A stretch of DNA of 64,000 nucleotides, from positions 3,967,501 through 4,031,500 of the forward strand of contig PHTZ01000001.1 of NCBI GenBank assembly GCA_002813285.1, in the 5' to 3' direction. Positions 1 through 22,230 of this stretch are shown piece after piece (within the stretch, counting starts at the first letter, position 1; every line of letters starts with the position of its first letter). Origin of the DNA: Flavobacteriaceae bacterium MAR_2009_75 (GTDB lineage Bacteria > Bacteroidota > Bacteroidia > Flavobacteriales > Flavobacteriaceae). The position numbers and the translations under genes were made by a program. The notes beneath the pieces are model-generated. The model did no database searches. It saw only the letters and a list, made by a program, of their open reading frames with translations, and was not told where the DNA came from.

Positions 1-785
1 ACAAGGCCATCGTGGAGAACGCGGTGCGCATTGTCTATACCAGGGTGTTCGCCCCCTTGCGCAACAGCACCTTCCATAGTGTGGGCGAGATCAACTGGGC
101 CATCCTGGAACTGCTAAGGGTTCATAACAACGTTTCCTTCAGGGGAAGGGAATACTCCAGGTGTTCCCTGTTCCGGGAAGTGGAGGTGCCGGAGCTCGGT
201 CCCCTCCCCTTGAAACGGTATGAGATAAGATCTTATGCAGAGGGCACGGTCCACAAGAACAGCCATATCTACCTTGGCAGGGACAAGCACTACTACAGTG
301 TTCCATACAGGCACATCGGCAAGCAGGTGAATATCGTCTACACGGACAGCTTCGTGGAGATATACCACAGGCATGAACGTTTGGCCGTCCATGAAAGGAA
401 GAGGCAACGGTACGGCTACACCACCGCAGCGGAACATATGCCCTCCCACCACAGGTTCGTCAGCGAATGGAGCAGTGAGAAGTTCATCTCCTGGGCCGCC
501 AACATCGGCGAGAACTGCAAGGGGTACATCATCGGGATACTCGACAAGAAACAACATCCGGAACAATCCTACAAGTCCTGCATGGGCATACTGCACCTGG
601 CCAAGAAGGTCGGCAACCAACGGCTGGACAATGCCTGCAGGCGGGCATCGGACTATGGAGCCTATAATTACAGCATGGTGGAGCGGATACTGAAAAAAGG
701 GTGGGATACCCTGGAGGACGACCCGGAGGATACCTCCGAGGTCCCGGACCACGATAACATCAGGGGAGGAAACTATTATAAATGA
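1..785 (+). CDS. istA: IS21 transposase IstA, C-terminal part (5' end outside window)
   Basis: This is the C-terminal ~260 residues of an IS21 transposase. The reading frame is open to base 1 (KAIVENAVR precedes any start), so the gene begins outside the window and the GTG at 12 is not the true start. IstA is the DDE-type integrase that cuts and joins the ends of the element. The visible part carries the end of the integrase domain (VENAVRIVY, then FNELLAR-like INWAILELL) and the basic C-terminal domain (HYYSVPYRHIGKQV, ERLAVHERKRQRYGY) typical of the family. It overlaps istB by four bases (ATGA), the standard coupled arrangement. Confidence 0.93.
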   Translation, partial: KAIVENAVRIVYTRVFAPLRNSTFHSVGEINWAILELLRVHNNVSFRGREYSRCSLFREVEVPELGPLPLKRYEIRSYAEGTVHKNSHIYLGRDKHYYSVPYRHIGKQVNIVYTDSFVEIYHRHERLAVHERKRQRYGYTTAAEHMPSHHRFVSEWSSEKFISWAANIGENCKGYIIGILDKKQHPEQSYKSCMGILHLAKKVGNQRLDNACRRASDYGAYNYSMVERILKKGWDTLEDDPEDTSEVPDHDNIRGGNYYK

Positions 786-1537
786 CAAACATTAAAACAG
801 ACAACATGAACACAAAGACAATGGAACAGATGAAACAGCTCAGGCTCCACGGGATGCTCAGGGCCTTTGACACCAGCCTCTCGCCCGAGAGCATGGACTA
901 TACCAACGATGAACTGGTGGCCTATCTGGTACAGTCCGAATGGGACGATAGGCACAACCGCAAGATCGAGCGCCTGACAAAGGCCGCAAGGTTCAGGTAC
1001 GGTGCCGTTATGGAGGCAATCGATTACGGCCCCGGAAGGAACATAGACAGGAACAGGATACAACGCTACGCCTCCTGCGGATTTATACGCAAGGGTGAAA
1101 ATATGCTTGTCACGGGGAGCACCGGGGTCGGCAAGAGCTATCTGGCCTCCGCCATCGGGCACCAGGCCTGCTCAATGGGGTACAGGACCATGTACTTCAA
1201 CACGGCCAAGCTCTTTACCCTGCTCAAAACGTCAAAGGCGGACGGGTCTTATCTAAAATTCATTGGAAAGCTTGAAAAACAGGACCTGCTCATACTCGAT
1301 GACTTTGGCCTAAAACCGTTGGACAACATCAACAGGCACTCTTTGATGGAGATCATAGAGGACAGGCACGGCAAAAGGTCCACCATCATAGCCTCACAAC
1401 TGCCCGTGGAGGCATGGCACGATGTCATCGGGGAAAAAACAATCGCCGATGCCATCCTTGACCGTTTGGTTCACTCGGCCCATAGGATCGACATAAAAGG
1501 GGAATCAATGAGAAAAAAAATTAAAAATAAACGTTAA
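782..1537 (+). CDS. istB: IS21 transposition helper ATPase IstB
   Basis: IstB is the AAA+ ATPase that assists IstA in target capture and strand transfer. The 251-residue product has the usual full length. Walker A is GSTGVGKS at residues 112-119, Walker B is LLILDDFG around residue 170, and the C-terminal part carries the conserved IADAILDRLVHSAHRI block. The ATG overlaps the istA stop as ATGA, implying translational coupling. The C-terminus is lysine/arginine rich. The gene appears intact, so it could be functional if the left part of the element is also intact. Confidence 0.97.
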   Translation: MTNIKTDNMNTKTMEQMKQLRLHGMLRAFDTSLSPESMDYTNDELVAYLVQSEWDDRHNRKIERLTKAARFRYGAVMEAIDYGPGRNIDRNRIQRYASCGFIRKGENMLVTGSTGVGKSYLASAIGHQACSMGYRTMYFNTAKLFTLLKTSKADGSYLKFIGKLEKQDLLILDDFGLKPLDNINRHSLMEIIEDRHGKRSTIIASQLPVEAWHDVIGEKTIADAILDRLVHSAHRIDIKGESMRKKIKNKR

Positions 1538-2704: not shown

Positions 2705-3955
2705 ATGAAATATATATACTTAAACGGTAAAAAATCCGTAGCATTAAGTTTTAAGAATGGGACTGAGGAAGTCGAGAATGTTTTTATTGATGGAAAGATT
2801 CATGATTTTAAGAATGAAGATAATCCAAATAAAATGGCCTATTCATTAGCCGCTAAGCGAAAAATGTATGAGCAATTCTTAAACCATCAATTTGAGAACT
2901 TAAATATTCTTACAGGAGCGGGGTCATCCGTAAATATTGGAAAAGGGAATAAAGGAAGATTGTTATCTCAGTTATGGGATGATGTTTCAGCGTCTCTTAC
3001 AGAACCGATTTTAAACAAATTTTGCGAATTAGTTCATTATACGGATAAAGAGCAAAATGGAGAATACACTAAAAACCTAGAAAAATTACTTTCAATTGCT
3101 AATGTGGCCAAAGATTATGTTGTCGACACACCACCACAAGAGGAAGAGGATGGTTATGAGGTAATAAAAATCCCCGATATCATAACCAAAATTGAAGAGA
3201 TAATTAGGGACAAATGCTCACTAGATTTACCCGAAAATAGTCCCCATAAAGATTTCTTAGAAAAAATTACCAAAAGAAAAGTAACTGCACCCAGAGTGAA
3301 AATATTTACATTGAATTATGATACTTTTTTTGAACAAGCAGGCAGGAGAAGTAATTATACCATTATTGATGGTTTCGCTTTTTCCCTACCTCGGTCATTT
3401 AGTGGTCGAAACTTTGATATCGATATTGTTTCAAGAAATTCTAGTAGGGTAAAAGAGGAAGATAACTTTATTCAAAAGGTTTTTCACTTATATAAACCTC
3501 ATGGTTCAATTGATTGGGAAAGAGATGGTGATAACATCTATCAAAAGGCAGGAGTCAAATTCCCACTAATGATTTTTCCAAAAGATAGTAAGTATGAAAG
3601 TTCATATGACCAACCTTATTTTGAAATGATGTCTCGATTTCAACAATCCCTAAGAGATGAGAATGTACTTTTAATATGCATTGGATTTAGTTTTAGTGAC
3701 AAACACATTGTTACCGCAATAATTGAGGCTCTAGAACAGAATCCAAGTTTTCAGTTATTTGTGGCAAATAAAGGAATTGACGAAACATCGGATAATTTCA
3801 AACCCTTCTTTGAAGCAGCTAAGAAGTATAATAACATTGCGCTAGTAGATGAAGAATTCTTAGAGTTTGCGAAATACTTTCCTGATTTACGATCTTACAA
3901 CCATGAGGATGATAAAAAGATTATAGTAAAAAGTAATTCCGAACCTAATGAATAA
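2705..3955 (+). CDS. SIR2-family NADase effector of a SIR2-HerA defence system
   Basis: The 416-residue product has the SIR2-like fold used by prokaryotic defence NADases. The nucleotide-binding GAGSS motif is at residues 71-75. The LNYDT motif (Asn204, Asp206) and the KPHGS motif with the probable catalytic His266 follow, and GFSFSDKHI is near the C-terminus. These are the conserved elements of the SIR2_2-type domain. Members deplete NAD+ during phage infection. The gene overlaps the downstream HerA gene by 8 bp, so the two are coupled and their products very likely form a complex. A short N-terminal beta-rich extension (residues 1-60) precedes the SIR2 domain. The start is the ATG at 2705; no strong Shine-Dalgarno is seen, as is usual in this phylum. 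A role in protein deacetylation is unlikely because the classical sirtuin zinc module is absent. Confidence 0.88.
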   Translation: MKYIYLNGKKSVALSFKNGTEEVENVFIDGKIHDFKNEDNPNKMAYSLAAKRKMYEQFLNHQFENLNILTGAGSSVNIGKGNKGRLLSQLWDDVSASLTEPILNKFCELVHYTDKEQNGEYTKNLEKLLSIANVAKDYVVDTPPQEEEDGYEVIKIPDIITKIEEIIRDKCSLDLPENSPHKDFLEKITKRKVTAPRVKIFTLNYDTFFEQAGRRSNYTIIDGFAFSLPRSFSGRNFDIDIVSRNSSRVKEEDNFIQKVFHLYKPHGSIDWERDGDNIYQKAGVKFPLMIFPKDSKYESSYDQPYFEMMSRFQQSLRDENVLLICIGFSFSDKHIVTAIIEALEQNPSFQLFVANKGIDETSDNFKPFFEAAKKYNNIALVDEEFLEFAKYFPDLRSYNHEDDKKIIVKSNSEPNE

Positions 3956-5756
3956 TAGCCCTTTTAATCATACACACTTCATTGGTTATATAAATCAAGT
4001 TACACCCCAGTTTGTAAAGGTCCATTTTCCGTCTTCAGTTTTAATGAAGACTTTTTCATTCTATGGGGAACAACTAAAAGGAGGGTTAGTTGGAAATTAT
4101 GTGGTTATCGAAGGTGATCAATTTGGGTTTTTAGGTAAAATATTGGAATTAACTCTTCCGGAGAAAGAGCGTCTCGAACTTAGCGAAAAATCATTTAATA
4201 CTAAAGAGTTTCATCCCACAGGAAAGATTGAAATCTTACTTTCTTTTGAATTGTTCGATCCATCAAAAATTGATAAAGGATTAAATTCCCTACCCGTAAT
4301 TGGAGCCAAAGTCTTTATTTGTTCATCCGAATTTATCAAGGGATATTTTAAAAGATTTGGAGTGAAAAAGGAGCATGAGGATACGGCACCAGTCATTGAA
4401 TTTGGTCATCTGACATACGATAAATCAACTAGTGTCGAACTTTCTCAACAGGCAATTTTCGGAAGACATTGTGCGATAGTTGGAACCACAGGTGGAGGCA
4501 AAAGTTACACACTATCTAAATTAATTGAAGGAGTAGTTTTAAATAATGGAAAAACAATTTTAATTGATGCCACGGGGGAATATAACACTCATGATGATGA
4601 AAAATACTCTTTCGATTCGGCGAAATTGTCTGATAACTCATTCTTTCATTATACAAATTTAACCGTAGGAGATCTATTTGTTCTATTGCGACCATCTGGC
4701 CAAGTTCAAGCACCAAAATTAATGGAGGCTATTAAGTCATTGAAAGTATTGAAAATGCTAGAACAGCATAAAGATGATGACGACAAGATTACGGCAAATG
4801 CAGATGGCACATATTCAATTTTAATAAACCCACAAACAGGTCTTCAGGAAATTATAGTAACGAACGCTAGCACAATTGTTAAACAAGGTAATATCATGAG
4901 GCCGTTTAACAGAATTTATAATAAGTACATTGGGGAGATAGAAAATATAGATTCTGACTTCGATATTAAGGCTCTCTCCAACCAAATTGTTCGTGAATGC
5001 ATTTGGGATGTAGACAGAAATGACTATAAGAAATGGGGCGGTCGCAATGACGCTCATCTCAACAACTGCATTAGTCTTATTTTGAGAGTTAATAATCTTA
5101 TAAATAATCCGTTGTTTGATAATATTTTTGGTTTCAAAAAGTCTAAAAACGCTAACGGGGAACTAACGAAACATATTATCGACTTTCTTTCAAGTGAAAA
5201 GAACCTATTGAGAATAGGCTTCGAAAAAGTTGGCTTCGATTTTCAAGCAAGAGAAATTGTAGCAAACTCAATTGGTAAATTTCTTTTAGAAAAAGCCAGA
5301 AAAGGTGATTTTTTAGATACTCCACTAATTCTTTTTGTTGATGAGGCACATCAATATCTAAATAAAGGTGTCAGGGATGAATATTTCGAATTAACTCAGC
5401 TGAATTCCTTTGATTCTATTGCCAAAGAATGTAGAAAACATGGGTTATTTCTTGGTATTGCTACTCAAATGCCACGGGATATTCCTACAGGAACGTTAAG
5501 CCAAATAGGGACATTTATTGTGCATCGGTTGATTAATCATTTTGACAAAGAATCTATAGCCAATGCTAGTTCCTCTGCTAACAAGAGCACTTTAGATTTT
5601 TTGCCCGTACTTGGGGCTGGAGAGGCTATTTTGATGGGTGTTGATTTTCCCATGCCTGTAATGTTAAAAGTGATTATGCCGAACATAAAACCGGATTCGG
5701 ATACCCCATTATTTAAAAATGTAATTCTCGAACCAACAAGCCAAGAGGAGGAATAG
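3948..5756 (+). CDS. HerA-type hexameric ATPase, partner of SIR2
   Basis: The product is a 602-residue HerA/FtsK-clade ATPase. An N-terminal HAS-barrel-like region (residues 1-150) is followed by Walker A GTTGGGKS at 179-186. Walker B is LILFVDEAH at 460-468 with the catalytic Asp465/Glu466, and the C-terminal part contains a TQMPRD sensor-like segment. In known SIR2-HerA (Nezha-type) systems the HerA hexamer assembles with SIR2 to give a supramolecular NADase/nuclease machine that aborts phage infection. Here no NurA nuclease gene is adjacent, which separates it from the DNA-repair HerA-NurA pair and supports the defence assignment. It starts inside the SIR2 gene (overlap 3948-3955). Confidence 0.88.
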   Translation: MNNSPFNHTHFIGYINQVTPQFVKVHFPSSVLMKTFSFYGEQLKGGLVGNYVVIEGDQFGFLGKILELTLPEKERLELSEKSFNTKEFHPTGKIEILLSFELFDPSKIDKGLNSLPVIGAKVFICSSEFIKGYFKRFGVKKEHEDTAPVIEFGHLTYDKSTSVELSQQAIFGRHCAIVGTTGGGKSYTLSKLIEGVVLNNGKTILIDATGEYNTHDDEKYSFDSAKLSDNSFFHYTNLTVGDLFVLLRPSGQVQAPKLMEAIKSLKVLKMLEQHKDDDDKITANADGTYSILINPQTGLQEIIVTNASTIVKQGNIMRPFNRIYNKYIGEIENIDSDFDIKALSNQIVRECIWDVDRNDYKKWGGRNDAHLNNCISLILRVNNLINNPLFDNIFGFKKSKNANGELTKHIIDFLSSEKNLLRIGFEKVGFDFQAREIVANSIGKFLLEKARKGDFLDTPLILFVDEAHQYLNKGVRDEYFELTQLNSFDSIAKECRKHGLFLGIATQMPRDIPTGTLSQIGTFIVHRLINHFDKESIANASSSANKSTLDFLPVLGAGEAILMGVDFPMPVMLKVIMPNIKPDSDTPLFKNVILEPTSQEEE

Positions 5757-6241
5757 ACGTTGCCAATAAACGAATGCAGTTAACATCTTAGACGCTGAGT
5801 TTTCAGAATCAGCCGATGCTCCAATACAATTTAAATTACTTGACATTATAGTCAAAAAGCTTTGATAGTAAAAAATTTGCCAAATTACCCGTGATTCATT
5901 TTATCTCTCAAGATGAACAAGGATTTAGAATGAAATAAAATTTTAATAGTCATCCAAACCCCTGCGGAAGTCGCACAAACCTTCCACTTCAATCCTCCAC
6001 GAGCGGACACGCTCCGCTGGTCCGCACGGGAAGTCTTTCCGTTCCGGCCTACCTGCCTGTGGCAGGTTTTCACGACATCCTCGGAGCCGCGCGAAAGAAC
6101 AAGCGGCGAAAAGCCGCTTGACCTTTCTTCTCCCTGCCCACAACGATTTGGGACACTTCTGTCCAATTTATGACCCCTGACATCGAAAATGAAAAGCAGT
6201 ATAGTTTCTTTTAACTATCTTGAAATCAAGAGCTAGGAGCA
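5757..6241. other. Intergenic region between the defence operon and the mobilization module
   Basis: The first ~180 bp are AT-rich with no recognisable gene. The central part (about 5955-6165) is an abrupt GC-rich island with several hairpins, described separately. Reverse-strand frames across the island (5885-6166, 5943-6143) look like by-products of its composition and are not called. Confidence 0.6.
5955..6165. repeat. GC-rich island with four consecutive hairpins
   Basis: Four inverted repeats follow each other within ~165 bp. GCGGAC 6003-6008 pairs with GTCCGC 6020-6025. ACCTGCC 6051-6057 pairs with GGCAGGT 6061-6067 (3-base loop). CAAGCGGC 6100-6107 pairs with GCCGCTTG 6113-6120 (8-bp stem, 5-base loop). 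GGACA 6151-6155 pairs with TGTCC 6160-6164. The island is far richer in G+C than its flanks. It could be a structured RNA, a miniature repeat element or the relic of another mobile element. No poly-T tract follows the stems, so simple termination is unlikely. Confidence 0.55.
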
Positions 6242-6913
6242 TTGAAAAAGCTAATTGATAATATCGCCAATTGGTTGGTTGGCCTTAAAGAAAGGAAAGA
6301 CACGATCGACCAAGACACTACCACTTTTCTAAAAAGAGGCAATAATTTCTTGCTCGTTTGGAGCCTGTTTTTTGGAAGTATATTCATTTATTTTTCAGTC
6401 GACCTATATCTTAAGGACGGAAAGTTGTTGTCTTCCTTAATCCCATTATTGCTGTTTGTTCTAATATTATTTGTAGGCGTGATATCCGACGCTTATAGGA
6501 AAAAACTAAAGCAGCGGAACCGAAACACTAGAATGAAATTGGTCGGGTTCAATATGGATTTCAACGAACGCATTCTTGAAAGGATTTTTAACCCTTTGAT
6601 ACGGTATGAATATTTGGACGAGAACCTGACCACTTTCGGGCATTTTCATGATGTCATGGTCCTTGATTTCGACGAGCACGTATCGGTTTTACATTTTAGC
6701 TGTACACAGGCTGAGTTGAAATATATACTGGAAAAGTTCAAACCGTTCAAAAAAGGGTTGGGTCTGGCTGCATTCGAACGCTCCGGGAAAATCTACAACA
6801 AGGGTAAATTGATTTCCGCAGAAAGCCTATCAAAGAGTTACAACAAAAACCCTCCGACAAAGGAATTCGAAAACCTTATCGATTCTTTCTTTGACTTTTT
6901 GGGGGATATTTAA
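6242..6913 (+). CDS. Two-TM hypothetical protein at the head of the mobilization module
   Basis: The family is not recognised. The product (223 residues) has a cytoplasmic N-terminal segment, two hydrophobic helices (about residues 37-55 and 64-82) and a soluble C-terminal domain of ~130 residues. The frame has no early ATG; the only reasonable start is the TTG at 6242, with AGGAG at 6235-6239 very close upstream. An in-frame stop at 6221 limits extension. Its position before the HTH and mobilization genes suggests membership of the mobile module, perhaps in entry exclusion or membrane attachment, but this is inference from position only. Confidence 0.6.
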   Translation: MKKLIDNIANWLVGLKERKDTIDQDTTTFLKRGNNFLLVWSLFFGSIFIYFSVDLYLKDGKLLSSLIPLLLFVLILFVGVISDAYRKKLKQRNRNTRMKLVGFNMDFNERILERIFNPLIRYEYLDENLTTFGHFHDVMVLDFDEHVSVLHFSCTQAELKYILEKFKPFKKGLGLAAFERSGKIYNKGKLISAESLSKSYNKNPPTKEFENLIDSFFDFLGDI

Positions 6914-7032
6914 AAAAACTTAGGGGGAGACTTCCCCTTTTTGCCCTTCCATCTGCTTTCATCCGTTTACATTGCATCGCACATTTGTAACACAAGCTAC
7001 CAACCTTACGGTCGCTATTTAAAGCATGTAAT

Positions 7033-7326
7033 ATGGAAACGGAAAACGATATGGTGGAAATCCTGAAAGAGATCAAGGGGCTTCTTTCCCATCAAAAGAA
7101 AGTGATGAACGTAGATGACCTTGTTGCCTATACAGGACTCTCAAAAAGCAAGATCTACAAGCTGACACAATTGCGCTTGATTCCTATGGGCGGCAACAAA
7201 CACATCCGCCAGAAATTCTTCAATAAGGATATTATCGATGCATGGCTGATGGGAGAACCCAATCTATCCGATGACTATTTGGAAAGGGAATTCGATAAAC
7301 AACTTTCCGATAATAAAGAAGAATAA
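7033..7326 (+). CDS. Excisionase-like helix-turn-helix protein
   Basis: A 97-residue protein with a winged HTH of the MerR/excisionase type in the middle (MNVDDLVAYTGLSKSKIYKLTQLRLIP, about residues 25-51), preceded by a short amphipathic helix and followed by an acidic tail. Small proteins of this kind accompany Bacteroidota mobilizable and conjugative elements and act as excision factors or regulators of mobilization genes. It lies 266 bp before mobC, with the oriT candidate in between. The ATG at 7033 is a clear start. Whether it is a recombination directionality factor or a transcription regulator cannot be decided from sequence. Confidence 0.75.
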   Translation: METENDMVEILKEIKGLLSHQKKVMNVDDLVAYTGLSKSKIYKLTQLRLIPMGGNKHIRQKFFNKDIIDAWLMGEPNLSDDYLEREFDKQLSDNKEE

Positions 7327-7437
7327 TAAAGTGAAATGTACTGAATAATTATAACACTATGAATATAGGATGTATGTGGATAGGGAGAAAAAAGAGAAAC
7401 GAGGACATTTCTCCTTAAATCCGTCTGAGTAAGAATT

Positions 7438-7492
7438 CGAGATGTGTCATTGTCATGACAAATCTCGCTTTTGCTCCCGTTGGTCGCAAAAG
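7438..7492 (+). other. Candidate transfer origin (oriT): two adjacent inverted repeats
   Basis: The first repeat has 13-base arms with one internal mismatch: CGAGAT-G-TGTCAT (7438-7450) and ATGACA-A-ATCTCG (7455-7467), with loop TGTC. The second follows directly: CTTTTGC 7468-7474 with GCAAAAG 7486-7492 and an 11-base loop. The pair lies 100-155 bp upstream of mobC and the relaxase gene. Relaxases usually nick next to such repeats immediately upstream of their own operon. The nick position itself cannot be read. Confidence 0.55.
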
Positions 7493-7592
7493 GGTAGGAA
7501 CTGTTAACCGTGTTTTCGATGTGTGATTTAGAAGAAAGTTTATTGATGTGATTATAGTGAAAATTTACTATTCCAATTAAGAAAAATAAAAA

Positions 7593-7889
7593 GTGAAAAG
7601 AGAGTTCGTACAATTTCGATGTTCCATTTATGAAAAAAAACTGCTTAAGGTCAAAGCCGATAAGAGCGGACTTTCCATAAGTGAATATTGTCGTCGTGCA
7701 GCATTCGACGATAGGATTATCGAGCGTTTGACCAAGGAACAGATAGAAATGTACAAGATGCTGAACAAGTATGAACTCAACTTCAAGCGCATCGGTAACA
7801 TGTTCCGAAAGCGCGATCCGAAACTGGCCGATGAAGTGGTTCAGTTGGCCAACGAGATACGCAAACATCTAATGGGTTTCAGAAAATGA
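7593..7889 (+). CDS. mobC: Relaxosome accessory protein MobC
   Basis: This 98-residue basic protein has a ribbon-helix-helix-like N-terminus (FVQFRCSIYEKKLLKVKADKS) followed by SISEYCRRAAF and a helical C-terminus (NELNFKRIGNMF-like, ELNFKRIGNMFRK) characteristic of the Bacteroidota MobC/plasmid mobilization family. MobC binds near the nick site and helps the relaxase melt DNA. The start is a GTG at 7593. The stop overlaps the start of the relaxase gene (ATGA at 7886-7889), so the two proteins are made in a fixed ratio. The neighbouring inverted repeats fit its role. Confidence 0.88.
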   Translation: MKREFVQFRCSIYEKKLLKVKADKSGLSISEYCRRAAFDDRIIERLTKEQIEMYKMLNKYELNFKRIGNMFRKRDPKLADEVVQLANEIRKHLMGFRK

Positions 7890-8755
7890 TAGGCCTCGGA
7901 AAATCCATATCACACACAGGAGCATCCATGGGCTACGGATGGGACCAAGAAAAGGATGCCGAAGTAGTGTATCGCCAGCATCTGTCGGGTGATAACCCTA
8001 AGGAAATTACACAGGAATTCAAGGTCATACAATCGCAAAACCACAAGTGCAAAAAGAACACCTTGAGTTTTGTACTGAGTCCCACCATAGAAGATGGCCG
8101 GGAATTGAAGGAAAAGGAACTAAGGGAAATCACGGAACGATTCGTCAAGGAAATGAGATTACAGGAACGACAGGCCATTGCATTCGTGCATCGGAACATG
8201 AGCCACGTACATATCCACCTATACGTGAACCGGATAAACTTTCAGGGAAAAGCATATAAGGACAACTACATCGGAAAACGGAGCCAACTCGCCGCCGAAA
8301 ATGTGGCGAGGCAAATGGGCATGACAACGGTAAGGGAGGTTCAACAACAAAAACTGGATAGGGTCAAGGATATAAGAGCGGAAGTAAAACAAATCCATGA
8401 AAAAGTCATGACCGAAATGAGGCCAAAGGATTTTAACCAGTATATCAAGTGTATGAAGCAACGGGATGTAGAAGTCGTTCCGAGCATCAACAAACAGAAC
8501 CAACTTCAGGGTTTTCGATTCGCGTATAAGGGAGAAAGCCTAAAAGGAAGCCATGTACACCGCTCCATGTCCATGGGGAGAATAGCCGAGCGGATTGGGA
8601 TGGATAGAACGGTAGCCCAAAAAATAGCTAGGGAAAGCACAATGAACTTGCTTGGAAAGACCGTAGGGGTGTCGCCGAACTTGGCAGCGACCCTAGCAAA
8701 GAAGGCCATCAAAATGGCCGTCAAAAAATCGATTGGATTAGGAATGGAAATGTAA
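7886..8755 (+). CDS. Relaxase/mobilization nuclease (MobA/VirD2 type)
   Basis: The 289-residue protein carries the relaxase histidine motif HRNMSHVHIHLYVNR at residues 102-116, with His107, His109 and His111 as the likely metal ligands, and an N-terminal KSISHTGASMGY segment that could contain motif I. Relaxases nick the transferred strand at oriT and stay covalently bound through a tyrosine. The domain matches the short relaxases of Bacteroidota mobilizable elements; there is no helicase domain, as expected for elements that use a host or helper plasmid machinery. It is coupled to mobC by a 4-base overlap and precedes the next gene by 4 bp. Confidence 0.9.
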   Translation: MIGLGKSISHTGASMGYGWDQEKDAEVVYRQHLSGDNPKEITQEFKVIQSQNHKCKKNTLSFVLSPTIEDGRELKEKELREITERFVKEMRLQERQAIAFVHRNMSHVHIHLYVNRINFQGKAYKDNYIGKRSQLAAENVARQMGMTTVREVQQQKLDRVKDIRAEVKQIHEKVMTEMRPKDFNQYIKCMKQRDVEVVPSINKQNQLQGFRFAYKGESLKGSHVHRSMSMGRIAERIGMDRTVAQKIARESTMNLLGKTVGVSPNLAATLAKKAIKMAVKKSIGLGMEM

Positions 8756-8759
8756 TACT

Positions 8760-9227
8760 ATGGCAAAGCTGGATGAAATTATGGAAGTGCTTACCCAGGA
8801 AATATCGGGGTTCAACAATTCCATTGGAAAACTGGAAGAACTTTCTAAAAAGTATGATGACACAGAAATTAAAATAGATACCTCTCATCTAGAGTTCCAG
8901 ATCAAGGAATTCTTAAGGCTTCAGAACCGCACAAAGGATTCCTACGAAGAACGGATAGAGGAAGTCCTTGAAAAAATTGAGAAGTCCAGATGGACGCCAA
9001 AATGGGAGCTTGCGTTGTTCTATATCTATGTAATTATCAATACCATTGCGTTCAGTTATTTCGGCTACTATTATATCAACTATGAACTTAAAATGCAGGA
9101 TGCTGTTAGTACAGCTAGACAGGAAGGTCTTGGCAGGGCAAGGGGCTATTTTGAAGATCACGAAGTCATCTACCGGGATTTTCAAAGGTGGGCCAAAAAG
9201 CAGGATAGCGTTCCAAATCGAGAGTAG
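8760..9227 (+). CDS. Coiled-coil, single-TM protein of the mobilization operon
   Basis: A 155-residue protein that starts 4 bp after the relaxase stop. The N-terminal ~75 residues are predicted helical coiled coil (many heptad Leu/Ile with Glu/Lys). A hydrophobic helix (about residues 84-104, LALFYIYVIINTIAFSYFGYYY) and a short charged C-terminal tail follow. Comparable small membrane proteins sit after the relaxase in several Bacteroidota mobilizable elements, possibly connecting the relaxosome to the membrane. I do not recognise a named family. Confidence 0.65.
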   Translation: MAKLDEIMEVLTQEISGFNNSIGKLEELSKKYDDTEIKIDTSHLEFQIKEFLRLQNRTKDSYEERIEEVLEKIEKSRWTPKWELALFYIYVIINTIAFSYFGYYYINYELKMQDAVSTARQEGLGRARGYFEDHEVIYRDFQRWAKKQDSVPNRE

Positions 9228-9719
9228 GGGTGCGCCCTATCCGGTTTTTGCTTAACGCTAATCTGCCGGAATCGCTACAAAAACCGGACAGGATCCACGC
9301 GCAAAGTTTTGAGGTAAGATCTGGGACGGACTTACCCCAAACAGAAATTACCATCGAATTGTGAATAAATCAATGTATTTGGTCAATAGGAATTTGTGGC
9401 CTGAAGGGCACTTTTTGTGGATAGGGGGAAGGAAGAAAAAGGTTGTGAATTGTCATGTTCCAATAAAACTTTTTGTGATATTTTGCGTGCAGGGCTAATC
9501 TTGGTATAGCAGGCTAGACTAATTTCAGGACAATATTTACCCTGACTTTGTTACAAAAAAATGAAAAAATTACCCTTACTCTGTTACAAACAATCATAGA
9601 AGTTTATCCTATAAGCTCTTTTTAAAAGATGAGTACTCATTGATTTTCAAATTAATATTTCACTAAAATGAGTATTATTATACCCAAAAATAGTATATTT
9701 GGGATAAATATTACCCAAA
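9228..9719. other. Spacer between mobilization module and HipBA, with a tandem repeat
   Basis: No gene is seen. The spacer contains TGTGGATAGGG (9416-9426) and ATTGTCATG (9449-9457), both also found upstream of mobC (7375-7385, 7449-7457). Two 21-base direct repeats with two mismatches, TTACCCTGACTTTGTTACAAA type at 9537-9557 and 9570-9590, start 33 bp apart, about 130-180 bp before hipB. Confidence 0.6.
9683..9719 (+). promoter_or_regulatory. hipBA promoter and operator
   Basis: Three copies of the same hexamer surround the promoter: CCCAAA at 9683-9688, its complement TTTGGG at 9698-9703 (together a palindrome with a 9-base centre) and CCCAAA again at 9714-9719, touching the hipB start codon. 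A perfect Bacteroidota -7 box, TATATTTG (TAnnTTTG), lies at 9694-9701 inside the palindrome. HipB-type antitoxins repress their own operons, and this arrangement would block the promoter. Confidence 0.7.
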
Positions 9720-21105: not shown

Positions 21106-22230
21106 TGGGGTTATATCACAATTAGAGGGTGACCTTTTAAAAACAGCGATTGTAAGGCGTTCATTTATTTGCGGATTCATTTTTCAAAAAATGGTCTTAA
21201 GAATCGAACTTTTTATGAGACAATTTTTTAAATTGAGCAGAACTCTTGGGAGGTATGTTTGCTAAATATGGATTCACCTTGTTGTGTTAGACATTTATAA
21301 CATTTGATGATATCGATTTTCTTCGTAATTTTATCTTATAAATAACACATAATCAATATGTTCTGAAGTTACTTATTAATCGAGTGTCCATAAAGGGATT
21401 AGATTTAGATAAGTGCAATCAAAATACTGAAAATCAATTATTTGCAATGATAAGTGGCATGCTGCCACCCCGACTTTAGTATTCGAACCCTGATAATCTT
21501 TTTGATTGTCAGGGTTTAATTTTTTTGTCCCTTCTCCAAATACTACTTTCTAGCCATGTTGACCTATTAAAAAGTTAACAAATTGGTTGCCAAATCTTGT
21601 AATGTTCTCAAATCAACTAAAATACGGATATTCCTAAAATAGTTCATCGGAAAACGAACAAGGATCTTATCCCATACATTTTGGCCTTAACTGCTGGACT
21701 ATTTGCTCTTTCATATTCATAATAAGAACCGAAAATATCTTTAAGTTTGGAGCACTGACCCAAATATAATTCCAGAATCTGCGATAGGCTCAATCCTTAT
21801 TTCCTCCCGAAAAACAATAAAGGCTCCATCCGTTATAAACCCCTTAAAATGTGTAAGTCAGCAGTTCGATTTTTATGGTCTTTCAAGTTGAGTCTCAAGA
21901 ATACTTCACCGCAAACACTGTAAAGGAAAATGGTGCGATGATCTTCCAACTATGCAGCGGACTCGGTCCACGATTTTGGCTCGGGAACGCAGCGTTCCTT
22001 GTATCGGTTCTTCCTGTAGAATACGATTTGTTTCCTGAATCGGTCATAATTGTTTGTCATGGTTATTGGTTCAAACGAAAATAATTCCAACTCTTTCACA
22101 TTGATTTATTACCATGAGCCGAAATTTTTCAATCTTGACGGTAAGTGTTTGAATTACTAATAGAATTTTTAGGAGTAAAACCTGATTTCCAAGTAGCCTA
22201 CCTTTCATTTAAATTGTAAACTAAGTAAAG
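21106..22230. other. 1.1-kb spacer without a convincing gene
   Basis: No reading frame with family features or expected codon use was found; the 69-codon frame at 21875-22084 looks spurious. The region carries one strong intrinsic terminator at 21486-21526 and a short perfect inverted repeat (GGAACGC-A-GCGTTCC, near 21980). It may be a decayed gene region. Confidence 0.55.
21486..21526 (+). terminator. Intrinsic terminator
   Basis: A 13-bp stem (21486-21498 with 21504-21516, one T-G wobble), a TTTTT loop and a following T-rich tail (TTTAATTTTTTT) form a textbook Rho-independent terminator. It lies 380 bp after the molybdenum-enzyme operon, which is probably the transcript it ends, unless an unseen small RNA lies between. 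Confidence 0.8.

Follow-up and report, generated by a model that had tools for sequence, protein, structure and literature searches.

Positions 7438-7492 of the window, the 64,000-nucleotide stretch of DNA analyzed here, very probably constitute the oriT of a 26.7-kb integrative mobilizable element whose attachment (att) repeats match the 3´ end of tRNA-Pro. From the sequence, we put the probability of this reading at roughly 0.93. It is built on a double hairpin, the conservation of that hairpin, covariation within its first inverted repeat (IR1), the MbpA-type gene and MOBP relaxase gene downstream, and an integrase gene inside the att repeats. An earlier note had picked out this segment as the candidate oriT of a small mobilizable element. 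This reading is supported by the position and neighbor genes of the segment, by its occurrence in 37 of 38 related modules and the covariation seen in IR1, by the matches on nine plasmids of other Bacteroidota and by the six orphan sites described below; the term "small" does not suit a host island of 26.7 kb. The oriT of a mobilizable element is a known kind of site; the oriT-only relatives are the newer part of this work.

Two abutting hairpins precede the mobilization genes

IR1 (7438-7467, + strand), the oriT hairpin found in the repeat listing, the predicted fold and the alignment of relatives, has 13-nt arms at 7438-7450 and 7455-7467 that are complementary at 12 of 13 positions (92%), with 4 nt between them. 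It comprises an outer stem (CGAGAT/ATCTCG), a conserved GTGT, an inner stem (TGTCAT/ATGACA) and a TGTC loop. The second inverted repeat, IR2 (7468-7492, + strand), abuts IR1 with zero gap, IR1 ending at 7467 and IR2 starting at 7468, and consists of a 7-bp stem formed by CTTTTGC (7468-7474) and GCAAAAG (7486-7492) around an 11-nt loop, TCCCGTTGGTC. Both repeats are held in a 266-bp intergenic gap between the end of the upstream ORF at 7326 and the GTG start codon of mobC at 7593. Folded as single-stranded DNA, 7434-7496 reaches -16.9 kcal/mol (z = -6.84), a stability that none of 200 shuffles attains. The arrangement given in the earlier note, a repeat with 13-base arms and then a directly adjacent 7-bp stem in the gap before mobC and the relaxase gene, proved exact in its coordinates. 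By criteria fixed after the pair had been seen, a 13-nt-arm repeat with at most one mismatch arose in 4 of 3000 dinucleotide shuffles of the gap and a perfect 7-bp stem in 472, and both repeats within 6 nt of each other in 0/3000.

The gene that follows the gap, mobC (7593-7889, + strand), encodes a relaxosome accessory DNA-binding protein that matches NCBIfam MbpA (NF041418) at 130.8 bits (cutoff 90) and is NikA-like in Pfam. It is followed by the relaxase gene (7886-8755, + strand), which matches PF03432, the MobA/VirD2 relaxase domain, at 94.6 bits, and by a gene for a DUF6730 protein (8760-9227, + strand), the third of the mobilization module. As is required of the oriT of an MbpA/MOBP module, a noncoding inverted repeat adjoins the relaxase and accessory genes. 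Relaxase residues Y17, H102, H109, H111, N115 and R116, which we take to be the catalytic residues expected of the family, are invariant in 44 of 44 aligned sequences, a set that takes in the window's own relaxase and seven plasmid sequences. By its sequence, the relaxase is of the MOBP type and is a relative of MbpB, not MbpB itself, scoring 91.3 bits against the NCBIfam MbpB equivalog, which has a cutoff of 400 bits. Given that the score is so far below this cutoff, knowledge of MbpB plasmids transfers to the window by analogy only. A blastn search of plasmids with 7033-8760 gave no match, and MobC and two oriT patterns were not found in viral contigs.

The ORF upstream of the gap (7033-7326, + strand) encodes a helix-turn-helix protein, perhaps excisionase-like (HTH_17 at 25.5 bits, against a curated cutoff of 27). 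Since the hairpins lie 3´ of this gene, either IR1 or IR2 could in principle be its intrinsic terminator. However, a terminator scan of 6900-7900 gives sites only at 6922-6938, no T tract follows IR2, and the site is kept behind other upstream genes, for example one annotated as a toprim-domain protein in plasmid L044. The chance that termination accounts for the hairpins therefore appears negligible.

Conservation and covariation of the hairpins

The set of related modules (n = 38) comprises 35 loci with a relaxase from a scan of species genomes, the window, this genome's second copy and a copy from the same genus. The same-genus copy is probably the same locus as L004, and L040 and L004, both on 674,489-bp contigs, are probably one locus, so that the 38 modules represent at most 37 independent ones; the sets of loci drawn from two genome collections also overlap (e.g. 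L034 and L064), and their counts are not independent. The double hairpin is located 5´ of mobC in 37 of the 38 modules, at a spacing of 10 to 105 bp, and in the 38th, L017, the contig starts inside the double hairpin. Among 11 of the 37 relatives, chosen for an alignable gap, mean identity to the window is 96% for the 55-bp core and 55% for the remaining gap.

The outer stem of IR1 is 100% paired in the 17 distinct cores compared, and one of its pairs alternates between A-T (10 cores) and G-C (7 cores), a double change. Three of five covariation measures on these cores, which are related by descent, lie above all 500 shuffles, and the other two are unremarkable, with double-change pairs reached by 29 of 500 shuffles and further pair types by 497 of 500. 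The IR2 stem is paired in all but one cell of the 17 cores, and, because its sequence hardly varies, it receives little support from covariation. Fourteen distinct short-type IR1 forms were collected as fits to one pattern, which did not require complementarity at three inner positions and which excluded long and irregular forms such as those of L103 and L106. These three inner positions pair in 14/14 forms, and one of the positions shows four pair types; over the whole of IR1 the short forms have 164 of 168 cells paired (shuffle mean 134, maximum 148). A search with the pattern CTTTGCTCCCN{2,8}TCGCAAAG, miswritten in that the window has CTTTTGC, gave 0 matches in 395 genomes and is uninformative.

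Other positions do not vary at all. Eight letters of the left arm, namely C, A, G, A, G, T, G and T at positions 1, 3-5 and 7-10, are identical in all 35 distinct sites and in 7/7 plasmid sites; CTCCCGNNGG or CGCCCGNNGG is found in 31 of the 35 distinct sites, and 6 of the 7 plasmid sites have CTCCC and then GGTC. Fixed letters at positions that a protein would read, together with pairing kept elsewhere, are what a protein-bound hairpin should display. We infer that IR1 is likely the recognition hairpin for MobC (MbpA) and the relaxase, and our best guess for the nick region is the conserved CTCCCG segment of IR2.

Covariation does not tell a DNA hairpin from an RNA hairpin, and the covarying IR1 stem would also suit a structured RNA, either a leader or a small RNA, encoded at the hairpins. 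Yet 6500-9500 has no Rfam match up to E = 1, and a scan of 6900-7900 for sigma-70-type promoters, which does not cover Bacteroidota promoters, found none. G-T pairs, moreover, number 0 in the 14 short IR1 forms, and two long forms have one. Such an RNA is extremely improbable as an explanation.

Occurrence of the site in related genomes and plasmids

The 17 cores served to build a covariance model, which was run on genomes of the same family and order in three overlapping draws and gave matches in 34 of 299 genomes (family), 9 of 395 (order) and 32 of 397 (family, stricter limit). The first draw gave 52 sites and the second 3 new ones, both at E up to 1e-5, and the third a further 13 at E up to 1e-7, for a total of 68 distinct sites, some of which are training loci of the model. 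At 62 of the 68 sites mobC is present in cis on the same strand, and 6 are without it. It follows the site in 61 cases (44 of 50, 4 of 4 and 12 of 13, together with this genome's second copy), and at the 62nd, L112, it comes after an inserted ORF. This ORF (L112 3215-3694), between oriT and mobC, resembles an IS110-type transposase by eye. At another locus, L084, the site at 1501-1552 and a copy 358 bp further on (L118) form a tandem oriT pair before one mobC.

So regular a neighbor raises the alternative that the hairpins serve only as an operator or 5´-leader control of the mobC-relaxase operon, through MobC autoregulation. The site is directly 5´ of mobC in those 61 model matches, often 5-30 bp from the start, and autoregulation by an accessory MobC is reported for plasmid RA3 (PMC4175270). 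On the other hand, the spacing between site and mobC ranges from 5 to 106 bp, and the site is kept away from mobC at L112, where the transposase-like ORF intervenes, and at L084, where it is duplicated. The 6 of 68 copies found without mobC or relaxase nevertheless lie beside an integrase gene, which argues against a mere mobC operator; an oriT explains these copies and a mobC-specific control element does not. We consider operon control alone very unlikely.

The site also extends to plasmids. Of 181 plasmid records with a relaxase match, nine were examined; their relaxases are distant, and their sites have E values between 6e-8 and 1.1e-3, with eight of the nine at or below 7e-4. The hosts are two Bacteroides, two Empedobacter, Myroides, Capnocytophaga, Chryseobacterium, Tenacibaculum and Cardinium. 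In seven of the nine plasmids, the site is 5´ of an annotated gene in the mobC position. On the Cardinium plasmid it stands before a small gene that precedes the mobC-position gene, and on plasmid L050 before an unannotated ORF that is mbpA-like by eye. By eye, the IR2 of plasmids L043 and L045 looks weak. A longer insert between the IR1 arms is seen in plasmids L043, L044, L046, L048 and L049, with the outer arms and the CTCCC segment kept.

Sites without a mobC or relaxase match

The six orphan sites are L107, L108, L109, L110, L111 and L130. No MobC or relaxase profile match was obtained in the ~19.5-kb stretches around them, for L107-L111 even with filters off, and the absence of a relaxase was judged from the module profiles and from Pfam scans of most ORFs. 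All six converge on the 3´ end of a tyrosine-integrase gene, at a distance of 0.5 to 4.2 kb. Four are enclosed by direct repeats, each pair with 1 mismatch: L107 (7066-12137) by 45-base repeats, L110 (5248-19262) by 23-base repeats, and both L109 (3948-10145; 6.2 kb, with a further 23-base repeat just inside) and L111 (6506-12310) by 15-base repeats. Because 15-base repeats are short, the match to the tRNA-Pro 3´ end matters for the latter two; the left repeat copy of L111 is the end of a tRNA-Pro called by ARAGORN, and the other elements are tRNA-like by eye. With an integrase gene and oriT between att repeats and no relaxase found, these four correspond to oriT-only (iOriT) elements. In L108 and L130, integrase and oriT are present, with no MobC or relaxase profile match and no flanking repeat pair found. 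A 29-base repeat in L108 lies entirely on one side of the site, and L130, which spans no more than 2.5 kb, is flanked by a chromosomal gene and a tRNA-Lys.

A full module was also located in five of the six orphan genomes, and in the sixth, G617, none was found. When the L109 element is compared with a 6-kb module stretch from the same genome (L095), a single stretch is shared, 58 of 58 bases that correspond to the oriT site. No other single finding speaks as strongly for the site working as a portable oriT. In three other genomes, orphan and module share the oriT at 86-92% identity, in two of them a second conserved element (E2, see below), and one 19-base match. The gene content of the oriT-only elements suggests that they could be mobilized in trans, probably by borrowing a neighbor's transfer enzyme. 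It is also possible that the orphans are decayed islands that have lost their mobilization genes. The L109 element contains two different oriT subtypes on opposite strands (6200-6251 and 9547-9599) within one oriT-only element, and these possibly serve two relaxase families.

A second conserved element

Directly 3´ of the DUF6730 gene is E2 (9228-9329, + strand), a noncoding sequence of ~100 bp that forms a large imperfect palindrome. It occurs in 30 of 37 modules, with 2 copies in this genome, and in 5 of 6 orphan regions, and is absent from five Sinomicrobium loci, L037, L038, L109 and all nine plasmids. Nine further full modules have long flanks, and E2 is found in five of these and not in L132-L135; in three more full modules the flanks are too short to judge. 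Second copies of E2 are present in L010, L015 and L110. The fold of E2 is mildly unusual (z = -2.27). One guess is that E2 acts in transfer, for example by providing the point where complementary-strand synthesis begins.

Relation to known systems

The Bacteroides mbpABC plasmids are like the window in that an MbpA-family gene comes first and the relaxase gene second. In one of them, L042, a CAAGAAGTGT..TTGTC..GACAATTCTTGC hairpin and then a short T-rich stem lie before mbpA, a site that scores 44.4 bits (E 6e-8) with model R1. There are also differences: the window relaxase is ~28-29% identical to those of the mbpABC plasmids and below the MbpB cutoff, its third gene encodes DUF6730 and not mbpC, the CTCCCGNNGGTC segment is missing in L042, and the window system resides on a chromosomal island and not on a plasmid. 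The mbp genes reportedly take their name from the pLV22a of Thomas and Hecht, whose oriT is said to have been mapped beside mbpA.

Among Bacteroidota, the canonical integrative mobilizable elements NBU1, NBU2, Tn4399 and Tn4555 are, going by their descriptions, similar to the window's island in having their own relaxase and oriT; they lack a conjugation pore, as the island may too, and their relaxases are counted as MobP in one review (PMC5704250). Elements with an integrase and oriT but no relaxase, which are moved by the relaxase of another element, are covered in two sources (PMC5704250, PMC11389934). The iOriT elements, or MGIs, of Vibrio and relatives have this composition, as the six orphans appear to. 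The MGIs that these sources treat are gammaproteobacterial and use the MobH relaxase of an ICE (PMC5704250, PMC11389934), whereas the six orphans would use the MbpA/MOBP module found elsewhere in 5/6 of their genomes. For CTn341, a nick site is mentioned in text that gives no sequence for it (PMC5729914). A literature search, with most subscription journals outside its coverage, yielded no described oriT of this kind in Flavobacteriaceae. A short, searchable oriT signature allows mobilizable islands to be recognized across this family, even those without any transfer gene, and the site makes hitch-hiking on a hitch-hiker directly testable.

The host island and its possible transfer

The island is delimited by the repeat CTGCCACCCCGACTT, which occurs exactly twice in the whole genome: a left copy at G000:C1:3962225, outside the window and 5276 bp ahead of its first position, and a right copy at 21462-21476 (+ strand), which marks the island end 26.7 kb away. 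A tyrosine integrase ORF (G000:3962422-3963717) is located inside the repeats, so that an integrase and att repeats bound the module, as in an integrative mobilizable element (iMOB). The same bases end a tRNA-Pro beside a related integrase in L005. Until tRNA ends were used, direct-repeat searches beside integrases gave nothing or repeats at chance level. ARAGORN detects no intact tRNA at either att copy, nor any tRNA within 27 kb to the left of the left att; that the islands form a tandem array is accordingly just a guess.

The cargo of the island includes a SIR2-HerA pair, type II genes for a methyltransferase and a restriction enzyme, and HipBA genes, with a helix-turn-helix gene preceding HipA. 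The second copy in this genome is on a 21.6-kb island at a tRNA-Leu, with an AbiEi/AbiEii pair. As both islands carry genes of restriction or anti-phage type, the site helps to explain how such genes may spread. The SIR2-HerA defense pair is at window 2705-5756 (PADLOC: SIR2 264 bits, HerA 606 bits), and an IS21-family insertion inside the island occupies window 1-1537 (the istA end and a complete istB).

Based on the order of transfer steps in MOBP systems in general, we propose that the island would excise, after which MobC would bind IR1 and assemble there with the relaxase. The relaxase would nick the + strand on the 3´ side of IR1, with the conserved CTTTTGCTCCC segment as the most likely place, and would stay attached to the 5´ end and lead the strand out through a type IV system that a co-resident conjugative element would provide. 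Elements that have this site but no relaxase would be open to mobilization in trans.

A broader model, to which we give an even chance, is that Flavobacteriaceae have a three-tier system in which the 55-bp site is a shared ticket. Conjugative elements would provide the pore, and islands like that of the window would provide MbpA and the relaxase. Stripped islands, ~2.5 to 14 kb in size and equipped with an integrase, oriT and often E2, would ride both. In this model transfer would also require E2, for instance as the point from which the incoming single strand is copied. Candidate helpers in this genome are two TraM matches, in two places, and two TraG-type coupling-protein matches. A scan for those families that took in part of the island ORFs placed all of these matches outside the island, and the presence of TraM-type pore genes elsewhere in the genome makes helpers plausible. 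A TraG-type coupling protein gene lies ~17-21 kb left of the window (L056 11600-14800), and two genes beside it may, judged by eye, code for a further relaxase and its accessory protein.
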